Shown here: positions 162-55,050 of the stretch, one piece after another | How the letters are laid out: each line of letters begins with the position of its first letter | Numbering within the stretch: the first letter of the stretch is position 1 | NCBI RefSeq assembly: GCF_014873765.1 | Contig: NZ_JADBGG010000009.1 | Coordinates: forward strand, 1 to 64,000 | Reading direction: 5' to 3' | Length of the DNA stretch: 64,000 nt | Source of the DNA: Desulfomicrobium macestii | Lineage (GTDB): Bacteria > Desulfobacterota > Desulfovibrionia > Desulfovibrionales > Desulfomicrobiaceae | Translations under genes and position numbers: made by a program | Notes under the pieces: model-generated | What the model saw: only the letters and a program-made list of their open reading frames with translations | What the model was told of the DNA's origin: nothing | Database searches by the model: none

Positions 162-1004
162 TTAGTAGATATTCACCTTCCTCGTCATCTTGGAATTGAC
201 CGTTTTCCATTCGCTATAGCGTGCCAGTTCGTCCACCAGAGGATGCGAGGGGAGGGCGCCCAGATGTTGCCAGGTAGTTGTCCGGAAACTGACGCCTTCC
301 GGCATTGTATCTTTGAAAGCGTTCGGAAGCAGGCTGATGCCGAGGACGACTTTGTGAGGCCTGTCCGGAAATATGACAGTTCCGTATTTGGTCAGGAATT
401 CACCCCGCAGTTGGATCTGATCCTTGTCTTTGGCCTTGCCCTGGGCTGCTCCGATGCCCGACAGCCATTTGGCTTCACAAAGGATCACCGTGTTCGAGGT
501 TGTAATGCCCATATCAATTTCAGGACCACCGGAGACCAGGGTGTCGGGGTGGGGGATGCGGCGCCAGAGGGAGATTTCCGCGTTGTCTGTCTTTGCACCC
601 GGCAGGTCGATCAGTCTGAACAGGTCCCTGAGCCAGGGTTCGAGGATGTCTTGCGGCGCCCGGGCTATGGTGCCGAAGACCGTCCAGGTGATGGCGTCTT
701 CGCTGTGCAGGGACTGCAGGTCGCAGTAGTAGCCAAGGCCCGAGGTTGCGATTTCGAGATCTTTACCTTCGAAGGCCCGTGATTGTCTGCTTTTGTAGAG
801 CTTCTGGACGATTTCTGGCGGTGGCCAGGCCGTGAAGCCGGTGCGGATCAGGTTGTCGTAGGGGTGCGAAACAGCCTTCACGCCGCCTTTGCTGCGGGCA
901 ACGGGGATGGCTCTGCTGTTCCAGTCAAGCATTTCATTACTGCAAATTTCGACTGTCCCACGAGTATCATCGATCATGATTTTTTCACCGGGCTTTTTTT
1001 TCAT
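162..1004 (-). CDS. PD-(D/E)XK nuclease-like protein, last gene of NAD operon
   Basis: A 280-residue protein I do not recognise as a named family. Seen in the sequence: a GGPEID stretch (acidic residue near 164) followed about 12 residues later by a hydrophobic strand and EAKW (E177, K179). This is the D...ExK layout of restriction-endonuclease-like folds. No signal peptide or membrane segment is evident. Its ATG overlaps the nadR stop by 4 bases, so it is translated with nadR as the last gene of the operon. The context with pnuC, nadR and an ADP-ribosylglycohydrolase is unusual for a nuclease; the substrate could be a nucleic acid or the fold could be used otherwise. The fold call is inference from one motif; the operon membership is secure. 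Confidence 0.6.
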
Positions 1005-2017
1005 CGTGTTGAAATGAGGTTGTCTGGCAGCGATGTATACTTGTCGAAGTTTTTGAGTACCCCGATCACGGTCTGCATGCGCTCTTCAAGTTCTCCTTGA
1101 AGGGTGATGAATGGTATGCGTCTGCGGATGAGGTCCGCGTGGATTTGCTTCTGAAAGATCGTCCTGTTTGCCAGGCCTGATCGGTCCCATGTGTCGTCAT
1201 AGGAGATGTCGTCATTGCACAGGAAAAAGAGGTCGTAGCGATTGATCGTGCTGTCCGCCAGGCATGTCAGGCGCGGGTCGGCTTTGCCGTGGTAGTACAT
1301 CGAGAAGCTCCAGGTTGTCGTTGCGTCGGTGTCGACAAAAAGGAACCGGTTTGCTTCAAGACTCTTCGCGTCCTCACGTTCGATATGGACTTGCGCGATT
1401 TCCAGGAGTTGATTCAGGGTCAGGCGGCGTTCCTGTTGGTGCTTTTCCCAGTACTCACGTCCGTACTCGGGCATCCAGACAGTGCCCATCTTGGTCGCCA
1501 GGGTCTCGGCGAGAGTTGTCTTGCCAGTGGAAGGGGCGCCAAGGAAAACGACCTTGGTGATGAGATCCCGGTAAACTTCCGCAGCAACGAACCGTCGGTT
1601 CTCGAAGGGTGCGTTTCGAATCTTGGTGGCCGAGATGGGGACGGCAACGCGATGCTCGTCAACACGGCAATCTCTGGCATTCAAGGCTTTGCTGACATGG
1701 TCTCCGTAAAATTCGCTGGAGAAGAAATGCGATATTCTCCGGCCTGCAAGGAAATTCAGGAGGAAGTCCTCATGGATTTTTCTGATTTCCGGTGTGTCTC
1801 CGACAATGGTCGGGCCGTCCCACGCCTCAAGGACCTCCACGGAAGGGTAGAGCTTCCTGATCCAGCCAGCGCGCACCTGCAGGGGAATCGTCGTGATCTC
1901 GGGGGAATCGTACACGATGACGATCAGGTGGTCGGTTTCCGCAAGGGCGCGCTCGATCAGGAATTGGTGCCCCTTGTGCAGCGGGGCGAACTTTCCGAGG
2001 GTCAGTCCGATCCTCAT
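1001..2017 (-). CDS. nadR: NadR-type NMN adenylyltransferase / ribosylnicotinamide kinase
   Basis: Bifunctional NAD salvage enzyme of 338 residues. The N-terminal adenylyltransferase domain has [10 protein letters not shown] (residues 8-17, the HxGH nucleotidyltransferase motif) and ISATKIR (128-134). The C-terminal kinase domain starts with the P-loop GAPSTGKTT (160-168) and carries an FVDTD strand. Known role of the family: phosphorylate nicotinamide riboside to NMN and adenylate NMN to NAD in the cytosol. The N-terminal HTH repressor domain of enterobacterial NadR is absent, so it should be purely enzymatic. The start overlaps the pnuC stop by 4 bases and the stop overlaps the next ATG by 4 bases, a tight operon in which PnuC imports the riboside and NadR traps it. 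Confidence 0.93.
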
Positions 2018-2589
2018 GCCGGGGACTCCGATCGCGAGGTAAAATCATTACGCCATGAAACAAGGCCTGCGGTCGCCATCAGAAGGAAGACCATGTAAAG
2101 ACCTGATGTGAGAAGAAGGGATTTATACGCATACACCCCAATGGCAACGATATCCACGACGATCCAGAAATACCAGGATTCGACCTTCTTTTTGATCATC
2201 AGCCATTGGGCAATAAGGCTTGCGACGGTCGTGAACGCATCCCAGAAGGGCACGGAAGCGTCCGTATATGTCGCCATTACCCAGCCCCAGACACCTGTTC
2301 CCGCAAACGCGGCAGCCACCCATAGGGCGAGATGTCGAGATTCCAGGCGGGACAGGAGCAGTTCGTCTCGGTTTTTGCCGCCGTGCAGCCAGTGATGCCA
2401 ACCATAAAGTTGCAGCCCGACATAAATCACTTGCAGGATTAGGTCAGAGTACAGCTTCACGTCATAGAAAATGTAAATATACAGCGTGACCTGGATGAGG
2501 CCGGTCGGCCAGCACCAAATATTCTGACGGATAGAGAACCAGACGCAAAGCAGTCCGAAGAGGACGGCAAGTGCTTCAATCCCAGTCAT
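2014..2589 (-). CDS. pnuC: Nicotinamide riboside transporter PnuC
   Basis: A 191-residue polytopic inner-membrane protein with about six to seven hydrophobic helices. It shows the PnuC signatures WCWPTGL near residue 25, LQxxxGWHHW near 60, and [17 protein letters not shown] in the second half followed by WxFWIVVDI. PnuC proteins carry nicotinamide riboside by facilitated diffusion, with the substrate trapped by the kinase activity of NadR, encoded immediately downstream with a 4-base overlap. It begins 59 bases after the phosphatase/ADP-ribosylglycohydrolase gene. The family assignment is clear; riboside rather than another vitamin precursor as substrate follows from the nadR neighbour. Confidence 0.93.
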
Positions 2590-2648
2590 ATATTGATCCT
2601 TGCACTACGCAATGCGCTCGTGTGAGGGGGGCGGCACTGTCCTGGCTG

Positions 2649-4118
2649 TCAGGTCTGTCCGGAATTTCTGAGAAGCTGTTGCGCCAGTTCCAATGCATCC
2701 ACAGGCCAGAAAACTTTGGGGCGAGGGTGCGCAACTCCGGCACGTTGTTCAGGTCTGCAAGCAATCACTTTTTCCCTCCATTGCGCGGGCACTGCTCCAA
2801 GGCCATGCACGGCCCCAAGAAGAGCTCCACAAATGGCGGCATTGGTGTCGGTGTCGCCACCGCGCATGACCGTATCGACTACGCCTTCTTCAAGGTTTGG
2901 GGCATGGAGAAGCTGCCAGACGGCGTTCTGGAAGGCTATGAGTACCCATCCTTGCTGGCGTCCGTAGCTTTTGGGTGGAGTCGTGGCTGCATCAGCGAGA
3001 GCCCCTTTCAAGGCGGAATGAACGTCCATTGTCTCCGCCCAGAGCAGCATCCCGGCATAGAGACTCCACGAAGAGCAACCGCTCCGAATGACTCGGGACA
3101 AGGCCATGGCGAAAAGGGCATTGGCTTCACAGCAGACCAAGTGCGGATGGGTTATGGACGCGTCCTTTTTTGCCCAGTCGCCAACGTCCCACAGGTTGTG
3201 ACGCGTTCCAAAAATGCCCAGCGGGCTGACGCGCATGAGTGCGCCGTTGGCTTGGCTCTCAAAATTGGGCTGATCCCTGAGGCCTGCCGCAATGGTTGCT
3301 CCGCAATCGAACGGGCGCGAGTCGTACCAGAATCGGTAGGCATTTCGAGCTTTGTATTTGTCGAACCTGCCATGTTCCACTAACGACCGGGCGAGCATGA
3401 GGGCCAATTCCGAATCGTCCGTGGGTTGACCAGCCAGGGTGTTCCACGTTCCCCCGTCGGCCAGTTCGCGTACCCCTGATGGATATAGGGCCCGTATCTC
3501 CTCCGCAGATTTGAATTCTACCAGACTCCCCAGGGAATCTCCTGCGAGCTGTCCCATCAGGCAGCCCTGGGCGCGGGAGAGAATGGTGTTGTGAAGAACA
3601 TCGGGCGCATCTTCATTCCAGGACAGGATATAGTTTCGCTGTTCCTCAGTTTCCGGGGATTGGCGGTGCCTTGATTTGGGGCACCATCGCCACAGGCTGG
3701 ACAGTTTCTCCAAGGCAGCGCTTCCGGCAAAGCCATGCCTGGCGAGCCAGCACCCGACAATCGTACCTGTTCTGCCAATGCCGCCCCAGCAGTGCAGATA
3801 GATCCCTTTGCCCTGGGCCAGTGAGTTGTCGATCAGGTCGAGAATCTCACGTGTAGTTTGCCGCGACCCTGGAATGCTCACATCCGGAATCGGAAACGTG
3901 CAGTATTTGGTCGTCCCATCGATCGAGTTGACGATGTCACGATAAGGCTTGAGGCCGTCCGCCGGGGTGGTCAGGTCAATGAATACCCCGACGCCAGACT
4001 TTAGCAGCGCCTTGATCCTTGAAATAGAGGATTCCTCGTCAAGAGTGCGCGGGTATTCCCCGGCAAGAAATTTGTTAGGGACGATCCAATAGGAGTTTTC
4101 GATTGGTGTTGTTGTCAT
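2649..4118 (-). CDS. Fused dual-specificity phosphatase and ADP-ribosylglycohydrolase
   Basis: A protein of about 489 residues in two parts. Residues 1-160 form a cysteine phosphatase domain with the P-loop HCWGGIGRTG (about 109-118, HCx5R). Residues about 180-489 form an ADP-ribosylglycohydrolase (DraG/ARH) domain starting GCLMGQLAGDSLG, with TDDSE near 232-240 and GGDTDTN close to the C-terminus as metal-binding segments. ARH enzymes remove ADP-ribose from proteins or small molecules; the phosphatase substrate is unknown. A longer reading frame begins with GTG at 4214, but homology begins at the ATG at 4118, which I chose although no strong ribosome binding site precedes it. It is the first gene of the operon with pnuC, nadR and a nuclease-like gene, suggesting ADP-ribose or NAD recycling. 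Confidence 0.85.
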   Translation of the reverse strand: MTTTPIENSYWIVPNKFLAGEYPRTLDEESSISRIKALLKSGVGVFIDLTTPADGLKPYRDIVNSIDGTTKYCTFPIPDVSIPGSRQTTREILDLIDNSLAQGKGIYLHCWGGIGRTGTIVGCWLARHGFAGSAALEKLSSLWRWCPKSRHRQSPETEEQRNYILSWNEDAPDVLHNTILSRAQGCLMGQLAGDSLGSLVEFKSAEEIRALYPSGVRELADGGTWNTLAGQPTDDSELALMLARSLVEHGRFDKYKARNAYRFWYDSRPFDCGATIAAGLRDQPNFESQANGALMRVSPLGIFGTRHNLWDVGDWAKKDASITHPHLVCCEANALFAMALSRVIRSGCSSWSLYAGMLLWAETMDVHSALKGALADAATTPPKSYGRQQGWVLIAFQNAVWQLLHAPNLEEGVVDTVMRGGDTDTNAAICGALLGAVHGLGAVPAQWREKVIACRPEQRAGVAHPRPKVFWPVDALELAQQLLRNSGQT

Positions 4119-4362: not shown

Positions 4363-5703
4363 CTAACGAATCCTTTGATTTGGAGTGCGACGTGTTGGTC
4401 TATTAAAATTAGAGAGAGATAAACGCAGCGGACGAACACTTTTCAACAACCGCACGCTTGAATACAATTGATTTTGATTGGCATGCAACCATTCGGCAAT
4501 ATCAAGAAGATTTTTGGCAGCAATAGTTGAGTCCGTACGAGAGGGAGCAATTGGTAACTGAAAAATCGCTCTACCTCGCTGCTCAAATTGCTGGCCTGGA
4601 AGATTCAGGATGCAAGCAGCTATGGAGGCAGAATTAGGGTCTCTACACTCCAACCGGGCACAATTTCTGCCGTGGCCGTCGCAACTATACGAAGTGTCGA
4701 TACCAAGGCAATTAAGCCATCTCACTAACCCTGCCATGTATGTATCCATGATCGGAAGTTCGTCTGGAGCACCGCCTTCAGCACCACCATGGCATGATTC
4801 AACCGCACTCAACCAATGGTCTTCCTCAACTTCATTGTTTGACGGCGTAAAAGTATCATCTACTAACTCTCCAAATCTTCCAAGTTCTACAATTTTCTTA
4901 AGAAAACGTATATTTTCTTTTTTTTCATTTTGAAATGAAATATGCAGTTTGCCTTTCGAATTTGCTAAAAAACCACTTCTGATCAGGATTCTGGACCATG
5001 GCAGTTTCTTTGGCAGCAAAGTCTGCGGTAATTCATACTTCCACACATCCCATAGAATTTTATAAGCAAGTTCAATGAATGTTCTATCAGAATCTCTGTT
5101 GTAATTTTTGCCGCCATGAAACAAATTACAGCGAACCTGGTAAATCATTGAGATCAAATGTGGCCAATCTGCTGGGATATTTTCATCAGATTGGATATGA
5201 TCTAATGCACAAGCTGGCGAAAATGCTGGAAAACGATTCTCTTGACCGTTTCTCGTAGAAACAATATACGGATCTCTCTCAGCAACTTTTTTTATAAATT
5301 TGTAGCGATCTTCAGTAAGGTTCCATGGCTCGATTCCGTTATTGTAGAGCCACAGGGATTGAAATATAGGAGCCATCTCAAGAAATGAATTAACGAGTTC
5401 ACAGAATTTTGCATCAACTTTATAGAGGCTGCCAAAGCGATCAGACAAATTTTTGTCTTTTGCCATGCAATGCACAAGGTAGGCATCTTCATGGTTTCGG
5501 CTTAAGTCTGGAACGCTTTTTGATGCCCATGCGTTAACCGTTACCCAAAGATATATCAATTTTTCAGATACGTTGTTCTCGTCTGTCTCCCTAAATCTGT
5601 GAATCCAGCCTTTAGCAAAATTCCACAGTTCTATGTTATCGTGCGGTCGGTTTAATGATTGAATTGCCCTTGCTCTCCAAGTCAATTGCCCACAATTTGC
5701 CAT
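4363..5703 (-). CDS. HEPN-motif protein of unknown function with cysteine-rich C-terminal domain
   Basis: A 446-residue protein, AT-rich compared with its neighbours and so probably acquired. Seen: an alpha-helical first half with VRCNLFHGGK at 190-199, the R-x4-H arrangement typical of HEPN domains (Apea/MAE_28990-like), many of which are metal-independent RNases or lack activity. A second, separate C-terminal block (about residues 310-446) contains GLVRWLNCLGIDTSYSCDGHGRN and later cysteines; I do not recognise this domain, and the C/D/H cluster might bind metal. It lies 244 bases upstream of the NAD operon on the same strand, separated by two hairpins. Whether it works with that operon is unknown. 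Confidence 0.6.
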   Translation of the reverse strand: MANCGQLTWRARAIQSLNRPHDNIELWNFAKGWIHRFRETDENNVSEKLIYLWVTVNAWASKSVPDLSRNHEDAYLVHCMAKDKNLSDRFGSLYKVDAKFCELVNSFLEMAPIFQSLWLYNNGIEPWNLTEDRYKFIKKVAERDPYIVSTRNGQENRFPAFSPACALDHIQSDENIPADWPHLISMIYQVRCNLFHGGKNYNRDSDRTFIELAYKILWDVWKYELPQTLLPKKLPWSRILIRSGFLANSKGKLHISFQNEKKENIRFLKKIVELGRFGELVDDTFTPSNNEVEEDHWLSAVESCHGGAEGGAPDELPIMDTYMAGLVRWLNCLGIDTSYSCDGHGRNCARLECRDPNSASIAACILNLPGQQFEQRGRAIFQLPIAPSRTDSTIAAKNLLDIAEWLHANQNQLYSSVRLLKSVRPLRLSLSNFNRPTRRTPNQRIR

Positions 5704-5799
5704 TTTAGGCCTCCTCCCACGATGCTGGTATTGTCGTGAAAATCCCTTAACATGAAATTGCCATGTTGATATGAGATTGCGATATTTATTGATGTCCTC

Positions 5800-7698
5800 T
5801 TATTGTCTCTCAACAGCAAGCTCTCCGTCCTCGCCTTCCCTGGGTAGAGACAGCAGAGCCGATGATTCCTCGATCGGCATTTCCTGAACGTTTCTGAGCT
5901 TGCGCCCGATGGCGCGGGTGCGGACCTTGGCCTTCTCAATGGTCTCCGAGGCCTGGTTAATGCGTTTCTGCACCGCGTCCAGGACCTCGCCGTACTTGGT
6001 CCATTCCGTCTTGACCGCGCCGAGCAGGGTCCAGACCTCGCTTGATCGTTTCTGGATGGCCAGGGTGCGAAAGCCCATCTGCAGACTGTTCAGGATTGAC
6101 CACAGGGTCGTCGGGCCGGCGATGACCACTCGGCAATCGCGCTGGATGCATTCAGCGAGACCCGGGCGGCGGATGACCTCGGCGAAGAGCCCTTCGATGG
6201 GCAGGAAAAGAATGCCGAAGTCTGTGCTGGCAGGTGGGTTGATGTACTTGTCGCGGATATCTCGGGCGCAGGCCTTGATGCGGGTTTCGAGCTGTCGACC
6301 GGCCATGTCGATGCCTTCTGCGTCGGCGCGCTCTTGGGCATCAAGGAGCCGCTGGTAGTCCTCCACCGGGAATTTGGCGTCGACAGGCAACAGGACGGGT
6401 GCATCGCCATTCTGTCCCGGCAATTTGACGGCGAACTCGACGCGCTCCGCACCTTCGCGGGTGGAGGCGTTGCGGACGTATTGCTCGGCGCTCAGAACCT
6501 GTTCGAGCAGCGCTCCGAGCTGGATCTCGCCCCAGGTGCCGCGGGTCTTGACGTTGGTCAGAACTTTCTTCAGGTCGCCCACGCCCGTGGCCAGGGTCTG
6601 CATTTCGCCGAGTCCTTTGTGGACCTGTTCGAGGCGTTCGCTGACCTGGCGGAAAGATTCGCCGAGGCGCTTTTCCAGGGTGCCCTGGAGCTTTTCATCC
6701 ACGGTCTGGCGCATGTTTTCAAGCTGCTTGGCGTTGTCGGTCTGAAGCATTTGCAGCTTTGTCTCAACAGTGGAGCGGACAGTCTCCAGTTTGGCAGCAT
6801 TGGTTTCCGAGAGCTGGTTCATGGCCGCCGCCATGGCGTCCAGTTGCGATTTTTGCGTCTTACCGAGTTCGCCCATGGTCCTGGCCGTAGTCTCGGAGAT
6901 GCCGGTCAGGGCCTTGACGATCTCTTCGCGCAGTTCCTTGGCATTCGCGGAGGCCTGGACGCGCATGGTATCGAGGCTTCCGGACGTGGATCTGGTCAGC
7001 TCGGTCAGTTGCGCCGAGAACGTGTCAAGCTGGACCTTCTCTGCTGCCGAGAGATCCTTGAGGGTGTTGCTCATGGACTCCGAGATTTTGGTCAACGTGG
7101 ACACCACTTCTTCTCTCAGGCTCTTGGCAAGAGCGGAGGATTCCTGGAAGGAGGCGTCGAGTTTGTTCGTGGTGACCTTGGCCGTGGCCGCGATCTGACT
7201 CGAAAATGAGTCCATGTGGTTCTTCTGCAGCGTCCCAAGGTCTTTGATGGTCACGCCGATGCTCTCTGAAATTTTCGTCAACGTGCCAACAACCTCCTCG
7301 CGCAGGGCCTTGGAGCTCTCGGCCGCCTGCTTTTCGAGGTGCGCAAGCTGCTCCTGGTTGGACCTCGTGAAGTCGGAGAATTGCGCAGCCAGCGCATCGA
7401 ACTGTCGCCCTTGAGCGCAATGTGCCTCGGAAATTCGCTGAAGTATCCCGCTCGAAAGCTCCCGGAAACTCTCCCCGACCTCTCGGCGTTGATCACCAAG
7501 CATTCGCCCTGATTCGGCACGGCTTTGGCCGATTTCTTCCTTTATGAGACGGGTTGCCATTTCCAGGGATTTTTCAAAGGAATCGAGTCGCGCACCCATG
7601 AGCAGGGCGCTCCGTGACATCTGGTACAGGATGGCCAAGATCAGGAGGATGGCCGCTGCTGGCAGAGCGATGGGGCCGTACAAGAGCAGTTCGTTCAT
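5800..7698 (-). CDS. rmuC: DNA recombination protein RmuC
   Basis: A protein of 632 residues. It starts with one membrane-spanning segment (about 8-26), followed by a very long coiled coil with repeated 'L-x-EEVV/IxTLTKISE' units to about residue 300. The RmuC domain follows, with the KTRGTWGEIQLGALLEQVL block and PVDAKFPVEDY, GILFLPIEGLFAEV and VVIAGPTTLWSILNSLQMGF. RmuC is a restriction-like-fold protein that limits inversions at short inverted repeats in E. coli. The ATG at 7698, preceded by GAGG at 5 bases, is preferred over a longer frame from 7794 because it puts the membrane anchor at the N-terminus. Confidence 0.92.
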   Translation of the reverse strand: MNELLLYGPIALPAAAILLILAILYQMSRSALLMGARLDSFEKSLEMATRLIKEEIGQSRAESGRMLGDQRREVGESFRELSSGILQRISEAHCAQGRQFDALAAQFSDFTRSNQEQLAHLEKQAAESSKALREEVVGTLTKISESIGVTIKDLGTLQKNHMDSFSSQIAATAKVTTNKLDASFQESSALAKSLREEVVSTLTKISESMSNTLKDLSAAEKVQLDTFSAQLTELTRSTSGSLDTMRVQASANAKELREEIVKALTGISETTARTMGELGKTQKSQLDAMAAAMNQLSETNAAKLETVRSTVETKLQMLQTDNAKQLENMRQTVDEKLQGTLEKRLGESFRQVSERLEQVHKGLGEMQTLATGVGDLKKVLTNVKTRGTWGEIQLGALLEQVLSAEQYVRNASTREGAERVEFAVKLPGQNGDAPVLLPVDAKFPVEDYQRLLDAQERADAEGIDMAGRQLETRIKACARDIRDKYINPPASTDFGILFLPIEGLFAEVIRRPGLAECIQRDCRVVIAGPTTLWSILNSLQMGFRTLAIQKRSSEVWTLLGAVKTEWTKYGEVLDAVQKRINQASETIEKAKVRTRAIGRKLRNVQEMPIEESSALLSLPREGEDGELAVERQ

Positions 7699-7958
7699 GG
7701 TTGCCTCGAGGTTCGATGAGCCGTTATGGGGGTGCCGATTCTGCCCTGTATGCAAATCAAAGCACGTGCTCTCAGCCTGGGTCGTGCATGACAAGCTCCG
7801 GGCCGGTTCAGGATAGGGTTGTTTTTAATGTTCGTGCACACAAAATTTTACAGGTTGTCCCGTGCTGTGGGGAACATCTTGGCATGAAATGGCTCATGGA
7901 GTTGAACTTATGCCTCCAGCCTTCATCTATAAGTGCATGTCAAGCCACGCCCCTGACT

Positions 7959-8552
7959 TCAGGCCAGCGCATAGGACACCTTGTTCTCATTGATGAGGAT
8001 CCAGCCCTTGCCTTGCATTTCGGCCAAAAGCGAGGCGAGCTCCTCATCGGCGAGCTGCTTCTGGAACAGGGAGCTGATGGTGCTGGAGAGCGTCTTGATG
8101 GTGCGGGGCTTTGCTGAGCCACGCTGCTTGAGGTTGGTAAAAATAACTTCAAGCTTCTCCGGGGCAGTCTTGGCGTTCGAGGCCTTCAGCAGGGGGATGT
8201 CAGCGATGGAGACTGACCTTGCGACCGATATTTTCTTGCTTCTGAGGTGCTGGATCAGAGGGTCGAAGCCCGTGTCCTTGGAGATGATGTGGAAGTAGGC
8301 CGTGGGATCCTGGGCGGCCAGTTGGCCGACATAGAAGGCGATATGGAAATCAAGGGCATTGGATCCGTTGCCGGAAATCTTCACGTACTCGGCCCGCGTG
8401 CCCATCTTCTGGACTGCGGCCGCGAGGACGAAGGGCAGCTTCGTCTGGCTCGCCCCTACAAACAGGAGAATCTTGAAATGCTCGGCGTCCAGCCCGGCCA
8501 GGGCTTCGACATGGACGTTTTCGTAGTCGATGAGAACGAAGTTGGTGCGCAA
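7959..8552 (-). CDS. NYN/PIN-like domain protein
   Basis: A 197-residue protein. The first 105 residues look like a NYN/PIN nuclease core: FVLIDYENV (D9, E11), NALDFHIAFYVG (D68) and IISKDTGFDPLI (D93, D97), acidic residues placed as in metal-dependent PIN-family RNases. The C-terminal part (about 130-197) resembles a small winged-helix or LOTUS-like domain, which is inference. The start is a TTG at 8552 with GAGGG about 7 bases upstream; no ATG fits the conserved first strand. It is a single gene, divergent from the metK promoter region. Confidence 0.75.
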   Translation of the reverse strand: MRTNFVLIDYENVHVEALAGLDAEHFKILLFVGASQTKLPFVLAAAVQKMGTRAEYVKISGNGSNALDFHIAFYVGQLAAQDPTAYFHIISKDTGFDPLIQHLRSKKISVARSVSIADIPLLKASNAKTAPEKLEVIFTNLKQRGSAKPRTIKTLSSTISSLFQKQLADEELASLLAEMQGKGWILINENKVSYALA

Positions 8553-8716
8553 ATTATTACCCTCTTCATGACGATGTCTTTGAGTGGAGGCGTTCGGGTA
8601 TGGCTGTAAACTGTCATGGCATAGCGTTTGGCCATCTCAAAGGATGCAGTGGGGATATAACGGGCGGAATATGTATGACACAAGTGTTTGTTCGGAATTG
8701 TTGAGCCCTTTTTTTA

Positions 8717-8745
8717 TTGACCACCGGCTCGGCTGGGCATAGATA
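8717..8745 (+). promoter_or_regulatory. Sigma70-type promoter of the metK leader
   Basis: TTGACC at 8717-8722 and TAGATA at 8740-8745 are separated by exactly 17 bases. Transcription would begin around 8752, which is the first base of the P1 stem of the first SAM-II aptamer. This fit between promoter and aptamer supports both calls. Confidence 0.6.
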
Positions 8746-8751
8746 CATTTC

Positions 8752-8803
8752 AGCGCCGATTTGATTTCAGCTTGCGGGCGCTTAACAAATGCAGCTAAAG
8801 CGT
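8752..8803 (+). promoter_or_regulatory. SAM-II riboswitch, copy 1 (metK leader)
   Basis: It shows the SAM-II layout: P1 arm AGCGCC (8752-8757), GATTTGA (8758-8764), CTTGCGG (8771-8777), P1 arm GGCGCT (8777-8782), then AAAT and GCAGCTAAAG (8787-8800), which supplies the pseudoknot strand. The same conserved words (GATTTRA, CTTGC, GCTAAAG) in the same order recur in copy 2. The aptamer class binds S-adenosylmethionine and lowers expression of methionine/SAM genes; here the downstream gene makes SAM itself, a direct feedback loop. An intrinsic terminator follows immediately. Recognition is by eye from the known consensus, not a covariance-model score. Confidence 0.85.
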
Positions 8804-8843
8804 GGGACAACCCGCTTTGGCGCAAGCTGAGCGGATTTTTTTT
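8797..8843 (+). terminator. SAM-II copy 1 expression platform: terminator and antiterminator
   Basis: The terminator stem CCGCT (8812-8816) / AGCGG (8830-8834) is followed by eight T (8836-8843). Two competing pairings link it to the aptamer. AAAGCG-T-GGG (8797-8806) pairs with CCCGCTTT (8811-8818), and TCAGCTTGCG (8767-8776, aptamer core) pairs perfectly over 10 bases with CGCAAGCTGA (8821-8830). Both are possible only when the aptamer is unfolded. Inference: with SAM the aptamer folds, the terminator forms and transcription stops; without SAM the alternative pairings suppress the terminator. Confidence 0.75.
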
Positions 8844-8858
8844 GCCCGGAATTCGGGC

Positions 8859-8911
8859 GTCGCCGATTTAATCGACAACTTGCGGGGCGACCAAGAAATA
8901 CTGCTAAAGCG
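8859..8911 (+). promoter_or_regulatory. SAM-II riboswitch, copy 2 (metK leader)
   Basis: A second aptamer begins 16 bases after the T-run of the first cassette: P1 GTCGCC (8859-8864) / GGCGAC (8886-8891), GATTTAA (8865-8871), CTTGCGG (8879-8885), AAAT (8896-8899) and GCTAAAG (8903-8909). The P1 stem differs from copy 1 in sequence but keeps its pairing, which argues for conserved structure rather than recent duplication. Confidence 0.83.
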
Positions 8912-8983
8912 TTGGCCCACGACTTTGCTCCACAGTGTGCCATGCGCCCACCTGTCCGGAGCAAAGGAGTTTTTTGGGCCATG
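8906..8983 (+). promoter_or_regulatory. SAM-II copy 2 expression platform over the metK start
   Basis: CTTTGCTCC (8923-8931) pairs perfectly with GGAGCAAAG (8958-8966), which includes part of the metK Shine-Dalgarno sequence AAAGGAG (8963-8969). TGGCCCA (8913-8919) pairs with TGGGCCA (8975-8981), which includes the A of the ATG. The alternative pairing AAAGCGT (8906-8912) with ACG-a-CTTT (8919-8926) would break this helix, mirroring the antiterminator of copy 1. Inference: SAM binding frees CTTTGCTCC to hide the start site, so this platform acts mainly on translation. Six T at 8970-8975 leave termination possible as well. Confidence 0.65.
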
Positions 8984-10147
8984 TCTAAAATCACACCCCC
9001 CACCGAGCATTTTCATCTCTTCACTTCGGAGTCCGTTTCCGAGGGCCATCCGGACAAACTCGCCGACCGGATCTCCGACCGCATCCTCGACGCCTTTCTT
9101 GAGCGCGACCCGCATTCCCGCGTCGCTTGCGAGACCATGCTGGCCGACCAGTGCGTCATTGTCGCGGGGGAGTTCAAGACCCGTCGGCTCGATGACTTCC
9201 ACGCCGTGCGCGACTCGGCCGAAATCCTGGTGCGTCAGGTGCTTCGGGACGCTGGCTACCGCAGCGCTGAAACAGGCATCGATCCCGATGCCTGCGAAAT
9301 CCAGGTGCGCTTCAACGGCCAGTCAAGGGAGATCAGCCAGGGCGTTGACCGTCCCGACGGCATCCTCGGCGCCGGGGACCAGGGGCTCATGTTCGGGTAC
9401 GCCTGCGACGAAACTCCGGAGCTCATGCCCGCGCCCATCGTGTACGCGCACCGGTTGGTGCGAAGGCAGGCCGAGGCGCGCAAAAGCGGGCTGCTGCCAT
9501 GGCTCGGGCCCGACGCCAAGTCCCAGGTCACCTTCCGGTACAGCGAAGGCAGTCCCGTCCAGATCGAGGCCGTGGTCCTTTCCACCCAGCACGACGCTGG
9601 CATCGGGGCGGAAATGCTGCGTGCTGAAGTAAGGACGCACATCATCGACCCCGTCATTCCGGAAGCGCTGCGTTCTCCTGCATTCCGCACCCTGATCAAT
9701 CCCACCGGCAGCTTCGTCACCGGCGGGCCGAAGGGCGATGCCGGCCTGACCGGCCGCAAGATCATCGTGGATACCTACGGCGGCGCCGCCCCGCATGGTG
9801 GCGGGGCCTTCTCCGGGAAGGACCCGTCCAAGGTGGACCGCTCGGCCGCATACATGGCCCGCTTCCTGGCCAAGCAGATCGTGGCGCGGGGATGGGCCCG
9901 GCGTGCCCTGGTTCAGTTGGCATATGTCATCGGCATGGCAGAGCCCGTCAGCTTCATGGTTGACACCTTCGGCACCGGGACGGAGCATTGCTCCGGCATC
10001 ACCTCACGCCTGCGCCGCGAATTCGACCTGCGGCCACAGGGGATCATCGACGCCCTGGATCTGCTCCGGCCCATCTATTATCCCACGGCGGCTTACGGAC
10101 ACTTTGGGAGAACCGATCTGAACCTCCCGTGGGAGGTGGTGCGATGA
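8981..10147 (+). CDS. metK: S-adenosylmethionine synthetase
   Basis: A 388-residue methionine adenosyltransferase that joins ATP and methionine to form SAM in the cytosol. Seen: [22 protein letters not shown] at the N-terminus, [23 protein letters not shown] in the middle, and [29 protein letters not shown] near the C-terminus, the three family hallmarks. The length is normal for the family. The ATG at 8981 with AAAGGAG 11 bases upstream is chosen over an in-frame upstream ATG at 8912 that lies within the riboswitch. Expression is very likely controlled by the two SAM-II riboswitches upstream. The stop overlaps the next ATG (ATGA). Confidence 0.97.
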
Positions 10148-10755
10148 AAGCGCGAGGCAAAGGAGTGAATCCCGAATTCAGACCCAAGGCGTACTTCGGT
10201 CCCCAGAAACTTGAAGAGCACCTGCTTTCGAACGTCCCTGGCGGAGTGGTCAGGAATCGGATGCGCGAGATGATCTCAGCCGGGCAGGAGAAGGAAGCCC
10301 GGGAGTTGATTGATGAGGTCGTGAATGACGGCGGAGAAATTGCCACCTATCTGGAATCCATCCACCCCATGTTCATGGGCGGCAACTACCTTCCCGAGCG
10401 CGAGCACGGGGAGGTCGAGATCGGCCGAATCACCATCGAGTCCACGACGTACGATGTCACCAGCGTGTATGCCGGGCGGTCGAACGGAAAAATCCGCATC
10501 AGGGTCGTTGACGAATACGATGGCGGCACCCTCGTCAGCCACCCCGAGATCGAAACGGAAAAGCCCCTCACAATGGGGGAATTCGCCGATTTCTTTCTGG
10601 GAGTGTGGCCGTTCATCGATGTCGTGATGATGAACGCTGAAGGGGATCTTGATGGAGGACTCGACTTTTTTTGGGCGGAGTCGAGCTTTTATCCGGACTT
10701 TGACATGTTTTTGCGACAACGGGTGATCGAGGCGTATGCGAAAGCGTACGACTAG
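10144..10755 (+). CDS. Conserved-looking hypothetical protein translationally coupled to metK
   Basis: A 203-residue acidic protein starting at the ATG that overlaps the metK stop by 4 bases. No membrane segment, signal peptide or recognised domain. It has an amphipathic N-terminal third, then a beta-rich stretch ([22 protein letters not shown]), then aromatic- and acid-rich segments towards the C-terminus. Being in the metK transcript, it would be under the same SAM control. I cannot assign a function. Confidence 0.75.
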
Positions 10756-11638: not shown

Positions 11639-13117
11639 ATGCGCTACATTTCCAACCCACCAGATGCCGCTTCGCTTATGATGTCAGCGCGAAGCTTCGG
11701 CAACTATGATCTGGCTGGAGCTCTCGCCGATTTGATTGACAACAGCATCAAGGCCAAGGCCAAGGTAATCCGGCTTCAGTGTCTGTTCAACGATGGAGAT
11801 CCGAAGATCAGAATTGCTGATAATGGCACAGGGATGTCTTTGGATGAGCTCTGCAAGGCCATGAGACCTGCAAGCCAAAATCCCTGTGAAGAGAGAGCTC
11901 CTGACGATATGGGAAGATTCGGCTGGGGCATGAAGTCCGCCTCGTTTTCCCAGTGCCGATTCCTAACTGTTCTTACAAGAAAGAAAGGCCAATATTCAGG
12001 TGCTTCTTGGGATTTGGATAGTCTTGACAACTGGAATATGGGGATCTTCGGGGATGTAGAGGTCAAGGCAGAGTGTTCCAAGGAACTGTTAGATTCAGAC
12101 GGTACCGAAATCATTTGGAGGAGGTGTGACCGTCTGTCGGAAGGGAAAACACTCAACAACGAACAATTCAATGAACTGATCATTCACGCCCGCAACAAGC
12201 TGGCTCTCATTTATCACAGATTCATCAACGGAGAAGTCAAATCAAAGAAACTTACTATTGAACTGAATGGTATTCCGGTGCCTGATTACGATCCGTTCCA
12301 CAGAAAGCATGAAGCAACCATGCAGCTCGAATGTGAGCCGCTGAAAATGGGTGGCAGGAAGAAGATAAGAGTCCAGCCGTATATCCTCCCCCACTACTCA
12401 AAGCTCAAGCCTGCCGACTTGGACAAGCTCTCAGGTGACGAAGGACTTCTCAAAAATCAAGGATTTTACGTCTATCGCAACAACCGCCTCATCATCTACG
12501 GAACTTGGTTCCGTCTGCTCAAGCACGGGGATCTGTCCCAGCTTGTGAGAATCAGTGTCGACATCCCAAACTCCCTCGATGAAATTTGGAAAATCACTGT
12601 CGACAAATCAGATGCACAGCTGCCATCTATTCTAAGGACGAGGCTGAGGCAGATCGTTGACGGATTAAAAAGACGCTCCGCCAAAGTCTTCAGGTCAAAG
12701 GGAGGGAAGGTCAGTGAACACGGGAAAGTCTCTGTCTGGACAAGATATGTGAAGAACGGGGAAATTCGCTATGAGATCAATCGATCACACCCGCTTCTGA
12801 CAGCACTTTTCACGGATGCTTCTCCCGATCTGGAAAGCAAACTTGATGGTGCCTTGCAAGTTATCGAGCGGGAGTTTCCAGTCAATATGTTCGGGGATGA
12901 TTTTTCCAAAGGGGTTGAAAGAATCAATCAGGCTGAAGCCAATCCGGAGCATTTCATGGATTTTCTTTCCGCTTCGCTCCCGGGGGTTCTTTCAGAATGC
13001 AACGGCAAGCTGAACCTCATGGCTGAGCGAATCAGAAATGTTGAGCCGTTCAGCAGTAACTGGACATTGGTTGAAGATTTTTTGACGAAGGAGGGCTGGA
13101 CCAATGTTAACTCATGA
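11639..13117 (+). CDS. GHKL (MutL/MORC-like) ATPase of a restriction-type defence system
   Basis: A 492-residue protein with a Hsp90/MutL-type ATP-binding fold at the N-terminus: N-box LAGALADLIDNSIKAKA (about 25-41), IRIADNGTGM (DxGxG) and GRFGWGMKSASF (G2 glycines). A ribosomal-S5-like second domain follows, ending in WKITVDKSDAQLP with the lysine expected to contact the phosphate. The C-terminal third is unassigned. The ATG at 11639 with an AAAGGGGG site fits better than an upstream frame. MutL-like ATPases linked to Z1 ATPases, nucleases and C5 methylases were described computationally (Iyer, Abhiman and Aravind) as restriction-type systems. It overlaps the next gene by 14 bases. Confidence 0.88.
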   Translation: MRYISNPPDAASLMMSARSFGNYDLAGALADLIDNSIKAKAKVIRLQCLFNDGDPKIRIADNGTGMSLDELCKAMRPASQNPCEERAPDDMGRFGWGMKSASFSQCRFLTVLTRKKGQYSGASWDLDSLDNWNMGIFGDVEVKAECSKELLDSDGTEIIWRRCDRLSEGKTLNNEQFNELIIHARNKLALIYHRFINGEVKSKKLTIELNGIPVPDYDPFHRKHEATMQLECEPLKMGGRKKIRVQPYILPHYSKLKPADLDKLSGDEGLLKNQGFYVYRNNRLIIYGTWFRLLKHGDLSQLVRISVDIPNSLDEIWKITVDKSDAQLPSILRTRLRQIVDGLKRRSAKVFRSKGGKVSEHGKVSVWTRYVKNGEIRYEINRSHPLLTALFTDASPDLESKLDGALQVIEREFPVNMFGDDFSKGVERINQAEANPEHFMDFLSASLPGVLSECNGKLNLMAERIRNVEPFSSNWTLVEDFLTKEGWTNVNS

Positions 13118-15803
13118 AAGCAAAATAGCTTTTTTCCGAATTGAAATTTCGAAGGAACCAAAGATAACTCGGGAATTCATCAGGGAAACAGTGCTCGGTG
13201 GCCCATGGACATTCCCGGAGGATGAGTTTGAAGCCATAATTCGATATCTTGAGCACACTTTCGACATCACCCAGACCGTCGGATCTTCACTAAAAAGTGC
13301 GATCAACAAGCCTTGGCTTACCGAGAGAAGAGCTGAAATTGATTTTTTCTACTGGAATCGCCTCCGCCGCTATTACACGGAAAAAGGCATTCTGCCTCCC
13401 AAGGTTGTGGGTACTCTTGATGCGGATACTGATCAGATCCTCGACTATTCTGGAAATCCGGCCACGGAAGGGCCATGGAAGCGTCGTGGCGCGGTCATGG
13501 GCCACGTCCAATCAGGAAAGACGACTAATTATTCAACATTGATCTGCAAGGCTGCCGATGCCGGATACAAGGTCATAATTCTGCTTGCAGGCATCACAAA
13601 CTCACTTCGTCAACAGACTCAGGAGAGACTGGACGAAACATTTATTGGCAAGAAGTCGGTTTTTCAGGCCGCAGCCCAAGAACCCCTCTCAATTATCAAT
13701 TTTGCAGAACAGAGGAGATTTCCTGCTTACGGAACATCACGTGACAGGGATTTTCTCAAAGATGCGGCATCTACCTACGGAGTCAGCCTTGCGGCTTTGA
13801 ACGAACCGATCATTTTCATAACGAAAAAAAACAAGACGACTCTTGAGAGACTGAGGGATTGGCTTAAGGAACAGAATGTTGTCGAAACTATTGATCAGCC
13901 CATTCTTTTGGTCGATGACGAGGCAGATAATGCCTCTATCAATACTGCAAATAATCCAAACCAAGTTACGGCCATAAACAGGGCAATTAGAGAGATTCTG
14001 GCTCTCTTTTCAAGATCAACCTATATCGGATATACAGCAACCCCTTTTGCCAACATATTTATCGATCCCGAATCCGAAAGTGAAATGCTACAGGATGATC
14101 TGTTTCCAAGAGACTTCATCAAGGCACTCGATCCTCCGAACAACTATGTTGGCGCAACTAGAATGTTTTCCGAATGGGGGGATCTCAGAGCGTCGATGGT
14201 TGTCCCTCTTGATCCCGAAAAGGATGATTTTGCGGCAGTCCTCCCGTTGAATCACAAAAAGAGTCAGGTTATTTCTTCCCTGCCGAAATCGCTTGAGCAG
14301 GCAGTCCGGACCTTTATCCTTTCTAGGGCGATCCGGGTGCTTAGAGGGGACAGCAGAAAGCATTGTTCGATGATGATCAATGTAAGTCGCTTCAATGATG
14401 TTCAAGAGACCATATTTGGACTTGTCTACAACTATCTGAGTGTGCTCAAGAATTCGATAACGATCAATTCAGGGCTTGGTGCTGGGGCATTCAAGGATGC
14501 CAACATGATTGCGCTAAGGCAGACTTTTGAATTGGAATACGGTGATATCGAATTTAGTTTCTCCAAAATTCAATCGGTTCTTAACAGCGCCGTTGGAAGC
14601 ATCTCCGTCAGGACAATCAACATGAGGGGAGGCGCCCTTGATTATTCACGTCATCAAGATACAGGGCTTCATGTCATAGCAATTGGTGGACTAGCCTTGT
14701 CCCGCGGGTTGACTCTGGAAGGGCTGACCGTTTCATACATTCTTAGAAATGCGTCAGCCTCTGATACTTTGATGCAGATGGCAAGATGGTTCGGATACAG
14801 GCCTGGGTATGCGGATATCTGCAAACTCTACATTCCTGAAAGCTCACTGGATCACTATGAATTGATCACAGAAGCCATTGAAGAGCTTCGCGCTGAAATT
14901 AAGCGGATGGAACTGGTAAACATGACGCCAAATGATTTTGGCCTGCGGGTGCGTAACGATCCTGCAGCAATAAGAATTACAGCTGCCAACAAGATGAGGA
15001 CTGCCACCAAGATGACTATAGCCCAAGATTATTCAGGGCGGCACGTCGAAGGCTATGTTCTCTACAACGATGATGAAGTCAACAGCAAAAACCGTTTCTT
15101 GACACAGAATTTTCTAAAAAAATGCGGTAAATATGATATTCGTGAAAGTAATTTTGTTCTTTGGAATGGTGTTGATGCCGAGACAGTCTTTCACTTCATT
15201 AGAGAGTTTTCCTTTCCTGAAGATCACGCTGACTTGGGCATTATAACGTCCAATAGATCTCTTTTCATGGACTACGTTTCTGACCGGCTCAAGGCAGACC
15301 TTAGTTCTTGGGACGTTGTCATCCCTATTTCAAAAACAAGCAAGTATAAGTCTTGCGATATTATTATCGGTGAGAAACTGCCGCTCAGAAGTCGTGAATC
15401 TGGAAAAGTACATAAAGGAAAATACAAAGTAACAGGAAAAAACAGAGTTGCTAATCCAGGTGACGAGAAGTTTGGTTTGAGCAGTGAAGAAATAGAGGCT
15501 GTGGAGTGCGAGATAAAAGAGGAAAAGACAGGGAGGGGATGCTGTTCATATAGCCGCCACAGAAAAAGACCACTCCTGTTGATACATGCATTCGAAGCTA
15601 AATTGAAGGAAGACCCCAAGGGGGAGGTTCTCATGCTGTCGAGCCCCGTAGTTACTCTGACCTTCTGCCTCCCGGCGACATCCGTAAAATCCGTTGAGCG
15701 GACCTACCAAGTCAACCTTGTGTATAAGCGTCAGATTCTCGAGTCCTCGGTGGAGCCGCCTGATGATGATGAGGCGATAATTGATGGGGTAGACTATGCC
15801 TGA
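13104..15803 (+). CDS. Z1-domain SF2-type ATPase of the defence system
   Basis: An 899-residue protein. Walker A GHVQSGKTTN lies near residue 133, an ILLVDDEADNAS Walker B near 270, and YIGYTATPFAN as an SF2 motif III. The Z1 region follows, with HVIAIGGLALSRGLTLEGLT and TLMQMARWFGYRPGYADICKLYI as motifs V/VI. The C-terminal 250 residues are unassigned. Z1 proteins are found next to GHKL ATPases and PD-(D/E)XK proteins in restriction-type loci and are presumed DNA translocases. The start at 13104 overlaps the ATPase gene; AAGGAGG lies 9 bases upstream. The stop overlaps the next gene by 8 bases. Confidence 0.9.
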   Translation: MLTHESKIAFFRIEISKEPKITREFIRETVLGGPWTFPEDEFEAIIRYLEHTFDITQTVGSSLKSAINKPWLTERRAEIDFFYWNRLRRYYTEKGILPPKVVGTLDADTDQILDYSGNPATEGPWKRRGAVMGHVQSGKTTNYSTLICKAADAGYKVIILLAGITNSLRQQTQERLDETFIGKKSVFQAAAQEPLSIINFAEQRRFPAYGTSRDRDFLKDAASTYGVSLAALNEPIIFITKKNKTTLERLRDWLKEQNVVETIDQPILLVDDEADNASINTANNPNQVTAINRAIREILALFSRSTYIGYTATPFANIFIDPESESEMLQDDLFPRDFIKALDPPNNYVGATRMFSEWGDLRASMVVPLDPEKDDFAAVLPLNHKKSQVISSLPKSLEQAVRTFILSRAIRVLRGDSRKHCSMMINVSRFNDVQETIFGLVYNYLSVLKNSITINSGLGAGAFKDANMIALRQTFELEYGDIEFSFSKIQSVLNSAVGSISVRTINMRGGALDYSRHQDTGLHVIAIGGLALSRGLTLEGLTVSYILRNASASDTLMQMARWFGYRPGYADICKLYIPESSLDHYELITEAIEELRAEIKRMELVNMTPNDFGLRVRNDPAAIRITAANKMRTATKMTIAQDYSGRHVEGYVLYNDDEVNSKNRFLTQNFLKKCGKYDIRESNFVLWNGVDAETVFHFIREFSFPEDHADLGIITSNRSLFMDYVSDRLKADLSSWDVVIPISKTSKYKSCDIIIGEKLPLRSRESGKVHKGKYKVTGKNRVANPGDEKFGLSSEEIEAVECEIKEEKTGRGCCSYSRHRKRPLLLIHAFEAKLKEDPKGEVLMLSSPVVTLTFCLPATSVKSVERTYQVNLVYKRQILESSVEPPDDDEAIIDGVDYA

Positions 15804-16791
15804 GAACTGGGACGATTTCAAAAGCAGCGTTCACCCGTCAGAGCTGAGAGTGCGGCGAGTCGATCCGCATCATCCGATGAATTTTTTCTATGGCAAGGAT
15901 TTTCATGGAAATTACGTCTTCCTCCTCAGGGGAAGAATTTACGGGGAGCCGCCAAAGACGCCTAAGCAGCTGGCCGGTATGGATATCGTTTTGGATTCGT
16001 GGGGAGAGGGAGAGTTTGAGCTCAGGTTCAGACTAATCGACTCGGCACAGGTGGATATCTTCAAGGCGCTTTGTGCCAATCTCATGTCTGCCACGGAAAG
16101 ACTCAAGAGAGACCAGCACAGGATTGGGCTTGAAACTACTATCCGTCGGCTGGCGAGATGGCAGGAGCTTCTCAGGTCCAGAATGGCGGAAACCCTTACT
16201 CAAAGCCAAATCATCGGACTGTGGGGAGAGCTCTTGTTTTTCAGGGACCTGTTTCTTGCACACCTTCCGCCACATGTGGCCTTGTCATCATGGCGAGGAC
16301 CGTTTGGCGATGAGCAGGATTTCATCCTTGGTTCCAAGTTGATCGAGATCAAGACGCAACTGAACAGTTCCGATCGTAAGATTCAGATTTCATCAGCGGA
16401 GCAGCTGGATACCGTTTCGGGGCAGATTATCCTCTGTCATCAGATTATTGGCCCAGCAGCAAATGAAGACTCGCGAGGCATGTCGCTGAATGAACTAGTT
16501 GAGAATGTCACGGCGAGAATGGGGAAGGATACGGCAGCGCTTGATGTTTATTGCTCAATCCTCATTGAGTTTGGGTACATGAAGAGAAACGAGTATGATG
16601 TTGATAAATGGGTCTTAAATGAACGGCGTTACTATCTGGTCGAAGAAGAGTTTCCGGCCATTAAGGCGTCTGAACTTCTCTCGGGGATTTCCGATGTCAA
16701 GTACTGCATAAAGACAGAGTCGATTAGCGGTTTTCTGGTGGCAGAAGATCAGTTCAGCGACTCTGTTTTCGGTCAGGATCTTTTCGGGTGA
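15796..16791 (+). CDS. PD-(D/E)XK motif protein (DUF4420-like) of the defence system
   Basis: A 331-residue protein. The central part reads LWGELLFFRDLFLAHLP...GDEQDFILGSKLIEIKTQ, with an aspartate then E-x-K about 12 residues later, the catalytic layout of restriction-endonuclease folds. Placement directly after a Z1 ATPase (8-base overlap) is the typical position of this family and makes it the candidate DNA-cutting subunit. Its C-terminus is followed by IS debris rather than directly by the AIPR gene. Confidence 0.85.
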   Translation: MPENWDDFKSSVHPSELRVRRVDPHHPMNFFYGKDFHGNYVFLLRGRIYGEPPKTPKQLAGMDIVLDSWGEGEFELRFRLIDSAQVDIFKALCANLMSATERLKRDQHRIGLETTIRRLARWQELLRSRMAETLTQSQIIGLWGELLFFRDLFLAHLPPHVALSSWRGPFGDEQDFILGSKLIEIKTQLNSSDRKIQISSAEQLDTVSGQIILCHQIIGPAANEDSRGMSLNELVENVTARMGKDTAALDVYCSILIEFGYMKRNEYDVDKWVLNERRYYLVEEEFPAIKASELLSGISDVKYCIKTESISGFLVAEDQFSDSVFGQDLFG

Positions 16792-16851
16792 GCAATCTTC
16801 ACTTTAGCGGAGGCACCAACTCTCCTACTGAGCACGAGAGATGTTTTTATT

Positions 16852-17111
16852 AGGACTTGTCGTAAATACGACCCTGATTTCAAGCGAGAAGCAGTCCGTC
16901 TGGTTGTTGAGGACTATATGGGTGTCCAGTGAGCTCAATCTACGCTAGGTATAACGCCTTGCGATTTGAAAGGCTAAGTGTAGACGCATGCTAACGATCA
17001 AGATGCGTCTTTTGCACGCATTCTGCGCCGGAATTACCAAAGGCTGAATTGAAGCGTTTGTGTAAAGAATACGCACATCTTCGGCGAGCGCGTGATATTT
17101 TATTGCTCTGA
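16852..17111 (+). pseudogene. IS3-family transposase OrfA remnant
   Basis: Two pieces of one decayed gene on the plus strand. 16852-16932 encodes RTCRKYDPDFKREAVRLVVED and runs into a TGA. 17040-17111 encodes KAELKRLCKEYAHLRRARDI ending in TGA. These match the start (KFxxEFKREAVRLV) and the end (ELxRLRKExxxLRxERDIL) of IS3/IS911 OrfA proteins; the DNA between no longer encodes a frame. No orfB or terminal repeats were found. It is an old insertion sitting between the PD-(D/E)XK and AIPR genes. Confidence 0.8.
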
Positions 17112-17390
17112 TGAAGAAACAGTTAGTTTCAATTTTTGCATATAGTTGCATGCTGAGAGTTCAACTATAAAATCATAAAATTTAGTATTTAGAGTAATAC
17201 ACAAATATAATTCGTTCTATAGATAGCAAATCTGAAAATTAAAGATCGATATAATAGTATAAATATTTTAATTATCTGGTCGAAAATTTGTTGTAGAGCG
17301 CATGAATAATATGAAATATGCTCGCAAATATATTCAGCTATGAAATATATCTGTCCACTATAGTGAAGACAGTTCAGGGGGTAGTCTGTC
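17112..17390. other. Very AT-rich spacer before the AIPR gene
   Basis: About 280 bases rich in A and T without a supportable gene. It probably holds a separate promoter for the AIPR gene, needed because the IS remnant separates it from the upstream operon. AGGGGGTAG (17376-17384) precedes the GTG start. Confidence 0.4.
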
Positions 17391-54885: not shown

Positions 54886-54967
54886 GGTGCACCTCGCACT
54901 GCTGTTGATATTTGGGGCAGCAGGGGCGAGGAATGGGGGGATTGGCCGGTCATGGCCTCAAGTCTTG

Positions 54968-55038: not shown

Positions 55039-55050
55039 AAAACTGATTTC

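Follow-up and report, generated by a model that had tools for sequence, protein, structure and literature searches.

The window analysed here, a stretch of 64,000 nucleotides from Desulfomicrobium macestii, contains a methionine adenosyltransferase gene, metK (TIGR01034, 506 bits). The genome has two metK genes, and we refer to this one as metK2. It is preceded by a leader with two aptamers of the SAM-II kind (copy 1 and copy 2), an intrinsic terminator and a hairpin over the Shine-Dalgarno sequence (Table 1). Each copy has a P1 stem and a P2 pseudoknot with a CUUGC:GCUAAAG core. The copies are spaced about 57 nt apart, as read from the sequence, with no intervening open reading frame (ORF), and copy 1 precedes the terminator. 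The original prediction, made from the letters alone, had placed two SAM-II-type aptamers in this metK leader. That claim is borne out: motifs and P1 stems were located, and the copies score 79.0 bits (copy 1, model R3) and 74.8 bits (copy 2, model R2) with the covariance models described below. Copy 1 belongs to a subtype that we call type A, and copy 2 to a subtype that we call type B.

Table 1. Features of the metK2 leader and adjoining genes, in window positions.
Feature	Position	Strand	Evidence or detail
Promoter-like site	8717-8745	+	-35 TTGACC 8717-8722; weak -10 TAGATA 8740-8745 or CATAGA 8738-8743
Copy 1, type-A SAM-II aptamer	8747-8808	+	RF00521 34.1 bits; R3 79.0 bits, E 5.8e-20
Copy 1, P1	8752-8757/8777-8782	+	
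Copy 1, strands		+	GATTTGA 8758-8764; GCTTGC (P2) 8770-8775; GCTAAAG 8794-8800
Copy 1, P2 pseudoknot		+	GCTTGC 8770-8775 with GCTAAAGC 8794-8801
Antiterminator helix	8766-8831	+	TTCAGCTTGCG 8766-8776 with CGCAAGCTGAG 8821-8831
Intrinsic terminator	8812-8843	+	stem 8812-8834, U-tract 8836-8843; -12.1 kcal/mol, then 8 T
Copy 2, type-B SAM-II-like aptamer	8854-8917	+	R2 74.8 bits, E 1.2e-17; RF00521 13.1 bits; pair counts, 34 relatives
Copy 2, P1	8859-8864/8886-8891	+	
Copy 2, strands		+	GATTTAA 8865-8871; CTTGC (P2) 8879-8883 pairs with GCTAAAG 8903-8909
Copy 2, P2a		+	CGAC 8873-8876 with GUUG 8911-8914
Ribosome-binding-site hairpin	8914-8980	+	CTTTGCTCC 8923-8931 with GGAGCAAAG 8958-8966
Outer stem of that hairpin		+	GGCCCA 8914-8919 with TGGGCC 8975-8980
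Shine-Dalgarno AAAGGAG	8963-8969	+	
metK2, accessory methionine adenosyltransferase	8981-10147	+	TIGR01034 506 bits, E 4.4e-152; 6-row clade
Overlapping downstream ORF, no family match	10144-10755	+	possibly co-transcribed with metK2

An Rfam scan at gathering level returned no match at either aptamer of the window leader. With the Rfam models run on 8500-9200, copy 1 falls just under the SAM-II cut-off of RF00521 (34.1 vs 36 bits, E 6.8e-6) and copy 2 far under it (13.1 bits, E 3.4); the proposed check against the Rfam SAM-II model thus ends in a near miss for copy 1 and a failure for copy 2. A SAM-V identity was rejected, as RF01826 gave no match in this region at E up to 10, and so was the SAM-II long-loop class (RF01726), which reached only 14.3 bits (E 9) on copy 1. 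Among seven related loci, RF00521 passes copy 1 of G388 (L229, 42.0 bits) and of G353 (L230, 41.6 bits) at gathering level, with no gathering match for copy 1 of G342 and G355. Run on 14 loci at E up to 1, the same model reported nine type-A elements at 28.9-37.3 bits, left copy 1 of L028 unmatched, and gave no match to the type-B elements present in eight of these loci. In another set, three of 20 loci were matched at gathering level, one of them at 43.9 bits. A separate family, RF02424 (Burkholderia 'sRNA' Bp2_Cand287), gave sub-cut-off matches to the minus strand of copy 1 (8753-8823) and to type-A copies in L141 and L172. It has been placed among metX/metZ genes (PMC3521395), and possibly represents a SAM-II leader whose strand was misassigned in the model.

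An Rfam gathering scan of 19 relatives gave only six SAH riboswitches and one tRNA, and we therefore built covariance models of our own, starting from the similar element carried by metK leaders of relatives in Burkholderiales. Model R1 has an 11-row seed (the two window copies, one Gallionella copy and eight others), R2 consists of 34 type-B rows and R3 of 17 type-A rows. Neither R2 nor R3 contains a window sequence; their independence from the window is incomplete, as R1, whose seed included the window copies, served to recruit the rows of both models and to align those of R2. Read with this in mind, R2 scores copy 2 at 74.8 bits (E 1.2e-17 over the 64-kb window) and copy 1 at 40.7 bits, with 13.2 bits at the best place outside the leader, so that copy 2 is the top-scoring place of the 64-kb window for this model; R3 gives copy 1 79.0 bits (E 5.8e-20) and copy 2 51.5 bits. 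Since copy 1 scores higher with R3 and copy 2 higher with R2, the two copies represent two subtypes. A recent local duplication, which would simply double the dose of one sensor, would account for their common leader, shared overall fold and similar length. We rejected it on the ground that each copy fits its own subtype model better, and the A-then-B order in 17 of the 18 pairs found by pattern search, described below, also speaks against such an origin, which we consider very improbable.

In type A, GATTTGA is followed by CAGCTTGC, P1 and GCTAAAGCG. Type B has mostly GAKTTAA, then GACAACTTGC or GAACTACTTGC, P1, an often longer linker and GCTAAAGCGTC; it differs from type A in the GAKTTAA strand, in the A or T preceding CTTGC, and in an additional helix, P2a. 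Its structure is conserved. In the 34 type-B sequences 96.6% of cells are paired, compared with 34.5-45.2% in slid controls, and two-sided changes occur in 36 cells, compared with a shuffled mean of 10.2; none of 500 shuffles reached this count, and none matched the covariation score or the paired percentage. Two of the five measures are weak, the number of pairs with two-sided change being matched by 25 of 500 shuffles and the pair types by 234 of 500. P1 is 97.5% paired with three pairs showing two-sided change, in an alignment that was fitted to P1 and is biased toward it, with no bias toward P2a. For P2a the paired share is 91.1%, and two of its pairs show two-sided change; the outer pair is open in 8 of 33 sequences, the next in 3 of 34 and the third in 1 of 34. 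All five P2 pairs of type B are invariant, as are five of the six in type A, for which 17 sequences (97.1% paired) give a like picture with less variation. The proposal that P1 keeps its pairing through sequence change therefore stands, on the strength of the type-B P1 figures.

Elements of the relatives are found by metK, metX, metZ and metH. Downstream of type A lie genes for O-succinylhomoserine sulfhydrylase, metX and metH (seven products confirmed by profile, the others assigned by eye), and a terminator follows type A in four of the five single leaders examined; in the exception, L130, the ribosome site comes directly next. For type B, metK is directly downstream in 20 of 29 Burkholderiales loci (L138-L166), a set taken for its best R1 scores and thereby biased to type B. 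At E up to 0.001, R1 matches 213 of 300 genomes sampled in the Achromobacter order; R2 matches 94 of 274 genomes in the class of G040, which contains Burkholderiales, many of them with scores in the usual type-A range of 30-45 bits. In L139 (1501-1715, minus strand) a SAM-I/IV aptamer (44.5 bits) lies directly upstream of the type-B element, in place of type A.

These data bear on whether copy 2 works at all. If copy 1 alone were functional, copy 2 would be a relic in the leader, decayed or changed in its ligand, as might be read from its 13.1 bits with RF00521, from the failure of that model to report a type-B element in the eight loci holding one (E up to 1), from its place before the ribosome site with no terminator of its own, and from the weak second copy of the Gallionella leader L028. 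A relic would hardly explain why type B is kept before core metK in many Burkholderiales (the 20 of 29 loci above, ranked by R1), why its P1 and P2a covary around an invariant P2 core, or why copy 2 is the best R2 place of the window, and we regard this explanation as quite unlikely.

The ligand of type B is a separate question. Type B might sense another SAM-related compound, such as SAH or methylthioadenosine, and the pair would then be a two-input gate and not a double SAM gate. The SAM contacts in SAM-II, which we take to be the GAUUU strand, CUUGC and GCUAAA, are all present in window copy 2, and metK is a frequent target; both observations argue for SAM, as does the fact that SAM is the ligand of SAM-II and of its close relative SAM-V alike (PMC6061858). 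SAM-II discriminates more than 1,000-fold against SAH (PMC1273637). On the other side stand the consistent differences of type B from type A described above (strand sequence, the base ahead of CTTGC, the added P2a) and the company of a SAM-I/IV aptamer in L139. We consider a different ligand for type B unlikely.

One order of the subtypes predominates. A pattern search of the collected loci gave 18 distinct pairs within 350 nt, of which 17 are A then B and none has B first; most loci had been collected for their type-B score, which leaves A-A pairs under-sampled in this count. The lone exception, Gallionella L028, is A then A by the one-letter rule; its second copy, spotted by eye, is a weak one that reaches 14.6 bits with R3 and has no R2 match at E up to 1. 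At least five consecutive T stand behind the first copy in 17 of the 18 pairs. Four further pairs missed by the pattern (L168, L240, L244 and L247) are all A then B by model score, R3 being the better fit to the first copy and R2 to the second. Tandem A-then-B leaders also lie upstream of a MATE efflux gene in L167-L171, L146, L160-L162 and L166 (profile-tested in L167, the rest by eye), with a small ORF between leader and gene in L167 and L168. Genome G998 has seven R2 matches, four of them in two close pairs; its locus L244 is an A-then-B pair.

In Desulfovibrionales, R2 matches 5 of 150 genomes, the host included, and all five have A, terminator and B in this order, with terminators of -8.7 to -13.9 kcal/mol followed by T-runs. 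Over the host phylum the model matches 3 of 297 genomes (G000, which is the window's genome, G781 and G866); the G781 leader is tandem, and the G866 locus shows only type B. The 145 Desulfovibrionales and 294 phylum genomes with no R2 match serve as a false-positive background, albeit scored under stricter filters. The host is unusual for SAM-II, as had been claimed; its dissimilatory sulfite reductase alpha chain is near-identical to PDB 2xsj, from Desulfomicrobium norvegicum, which suggests a sulfate reducer, and a search of its assembly for 16S gave no match. The tandem leader, which was to be sought in relatives, recurs in every R2-positive Desulfovibrionales genome. The patchy R2 distribution in the host's phylum points to horizontal transfer.

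Upstream of copy 1, a consensus promoter scan did not find the promoter-like site of Table 1. This site scores 8 of 12, and a TTGAC-type -35 box stands just upstream of copy 1 in nine of ten tandem leaders, a count that takes the best-scoring place in each leader with no shuffle control. A simple terminator scan missed 8812-8843, where folding gave the stem and U-tract. Within the terminator, 8821-8831 is complementary over 11 bases to 8766-8776 of copy 1, and nine of these 11 antiterminator pairs appear in the minimum-energy fold of 8752-8850. In G388 and G353 a compensatory change from A-U to G-C converts CAGCTT/AAGCTG to CGGCTT/AAGCCG (the strands compared across leaders are CTCAGCTT/AAGCTGAG against CTCGGCTT/AAGCCGAG). 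This one compensatory lineage change is the support for the antiterminator, whose length is matched by 13 of 500 shuffles for the window and by 13 to 166 of 500 across the five Desulfovibrionales leaders; in several other tandem leaders, for example those of G037 and G289, no antiterminator helix stands out.

The window leader folds moderately below shuffles (z -1.59 and -1.44), and the fold with z -1.44, computed without pseudoknots, contains the Shine-Dalgarno hairpin. By eye, a GCTCC/GGAGC hairpin lies beside the Shine-Dalgarno sequence in four of the five leaders (window, G342, G355 and G388), and none was seen in the G353 leader, which precedes another gene. Copy 2 has no terminator of its own and sits before the ribosome site.

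The MetK encoded in the window falls in a clade of six (window, G342, G355, G037, G022 and G031) that stands apart from 108 other MetK rows with support of 100, in a tree made by a quick method with long branches flagged for five rows, including L029 and L227. All six genomes have both metK2 and a core metK. Of the six metK2 genes, five are preceded by the tandem leader. It adjoins metK2 in the window, G342, G355 and G022 (L028, whose second copy is weak), whereas in G037 a small ORF and an HD-domain gene separate the two; upstream of the G031 gene (L029), inspection of the sequence and a search with R2 and R3 found no tandem leader. G388 and G353 (assemblies 96-97% complete) have the tandem leader and only core metK, and there the leader precedes other genes. 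In the host family, 20 of the 21 other genomes have a single metK, of the core kind and 52-56% identical to the window MetK, and RF00521 at E up to 0.01 has no match in these 21. Core metK of the window's genome lies, by eye, behind an ahcY-like gene, and an R1 search of this genome (4.5 Mb, 99 contigs) matched the two window copies only, with none at core metK. Judged by sequence, the window metK is an accessory second copy from a distinct, patchily spread clade and not the housekeeping metK. The idea that SAM represses its own synthesis through this leader would therefore hold for the spare enzyme only, and not for core metK, which has no R1 match. In the same tree, L035, L086 and L091, whose record titles give Mycobacteriaceae, Leptolyngbya and Rhodospirillales, have a MetK that groups with beta/gamma-proteobacteria; these records are likely mis-binned or mislabelled. 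The L091 genome belongs to the same class as the Burkholderiales sample, with G089 occurring in both sets.

The surroundings of metK2 were compared in eight stretches with positions 1-30000 of the window. L225-L228 share metK with it (antisense-frame matches aside) and L229-L232 share nothing; L227 additionally has kin of the window's DSP-phosphatase/ADP-ribosylglycohydrolase gene. A shared gene neighbourhood was rejected, as beyond metK there is one common gene, in L227 only. Near metK2 the window has NadR-like and PnuC genes and a fused DSP-phosphatase/ADP-ribosylglycohydrolase (1004-4118), and in L227 two distinct genes encode the DSP-phosphatase and the ADP-ribosylglycohydrolase, accompanied by an HD gene and a sirtuin (5109-10024). 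A phage-type integrase lies about 4 kb from metK2 in G342 (L226, 8072-9277). The ORF that overlaps the end of metK2 has no Pfam or PADLOC match. Farther along the window, at 11639-19460, kin of MzaB, MzaC, MzaD and MzaE stand in a row and are followed by a C5 methyltransferase, Vsr and an HNH gene; by its gene content this region is a predicted MZA-type anti-phage system. A TPP riboswitch (56.3 bits, cut-off 54.3) is found at 54953-55044 on the minus strand.

We hypothesize, with a probability of roughly 78%, that the leader is a two-stage OFF switch built from two different SAM-II subtypes. Four parts of this reading are inferred: that SAM is the ligand, which way each switch acts, how copy 2 is coupled to the Shine-Dalgarno hairpin, and that metK2 serves as a reserve. 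At the first stage, in the absence of SAM, the aptamer strand UUCAGCUUGCG would pair with CGCAAGCUGAG, which holds the 3' arm of the terminator, and RNA polymerase would continue. Upon SAM binding, P1 and the P2 pseudoknot would take up CUUGC and GCUAAAG and block the antiterminator, and the terminator at 8812-8843 would end transcription; because SAM-bound P2 uses the same CUUGC as the antiterminator, SAM binding should free the terminator. At the second stage, in transcripts that escape termination, SAM would fix P1, P2 and P2a of copy 2, and the downstream leader would shift into the hairpin over the Shine-Dalgarno sequence, leaving metK2 untranslated. Falling SAM would open both stages, and metK2 would act as a SAM-shortage reserve beside core metK. 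For two serial gates to steepen the response, as the original prediction has it, both would have to work within a similar range of SAM.

Tandem SAM-II leaders are an established kind, of which the window leader is a further case. The original prediction held them to be rarely reported, which does not agree with the 44 examples published in 2022, some with a terminator first and ribosome-site control second (PMC9481103). The window leader resembles these mixed platforms in having the first aptamer before a terminator and the second near the ribosome site; it differs in its Desulfovibrionales host and in its second metK, neither of which is named in the available text of that report. The SAM-II/SAM-V tandem of SAR11 combines a transcription gate with a subsequent translation gate (PMC9481103, same text), the order proposed here, whereas the second aptamer here is SAM-II-like, with no SAM-V match in 8500-9200 at E up to 10. 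With SAM-II itself (SAM_alpha, RF00521) the window copies share the H-type pseudoknot, P1, GATTTRA, CTTGC and GCTAAA; copy 2 differs in the A before CTTGC, the separate P2a helix and its score far below the cut-off. A beta-proteobacterial metXZ element (PMC4239095) has a pseudoknot and a terminator before metX or metZ, like type A here, and in the available text its authors call it new and draw no link to SAM-II. From its position and layout, this element is probably type A.

The 2014 survey in which the metXZ element appeared found SAM_alpha only in Rhizobiales and Rhodobacterales, and, as far as its available text goes, no regulator for metK in beta-proteobacteria (PMC4239095). Among the papers listed by a literature search of open papers, main texts only, there was no recognised SAM-II variant before Burkholderiales metK, and a role for type B as a widespread regulator of metK in this order may be new. 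Going further, we speculate that type B represents a SAM-II subclass not yet described, which governs the housekeeping metK in much of Burkholderiales and serves as the fixed downstream partner in a heterotypic A-then-B double gate, and that together with metK2 this gate forms a horizontally moving SAM-shortage cassette; this is a tentative reading, to which we give less than even odds. If it is true, such a cassette might restore SAM drained by phage enzymes or by heavy DNA methylation.

The leader offers a natural RNA whose two aptamers, related yet of different subtypes and probably sharing one ligand, would control first transcription and then translation, and in which pseudo-cooperativity would be measurable through single-copy mutants. 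The type-B element, missed by the Rfam SAM-II model, would fill a published gap in the regulation of metK in beta-proteobacteria, and in Desulfomicrobium a putative SAM-sensing leader is tied to a second, patchily spread metK.
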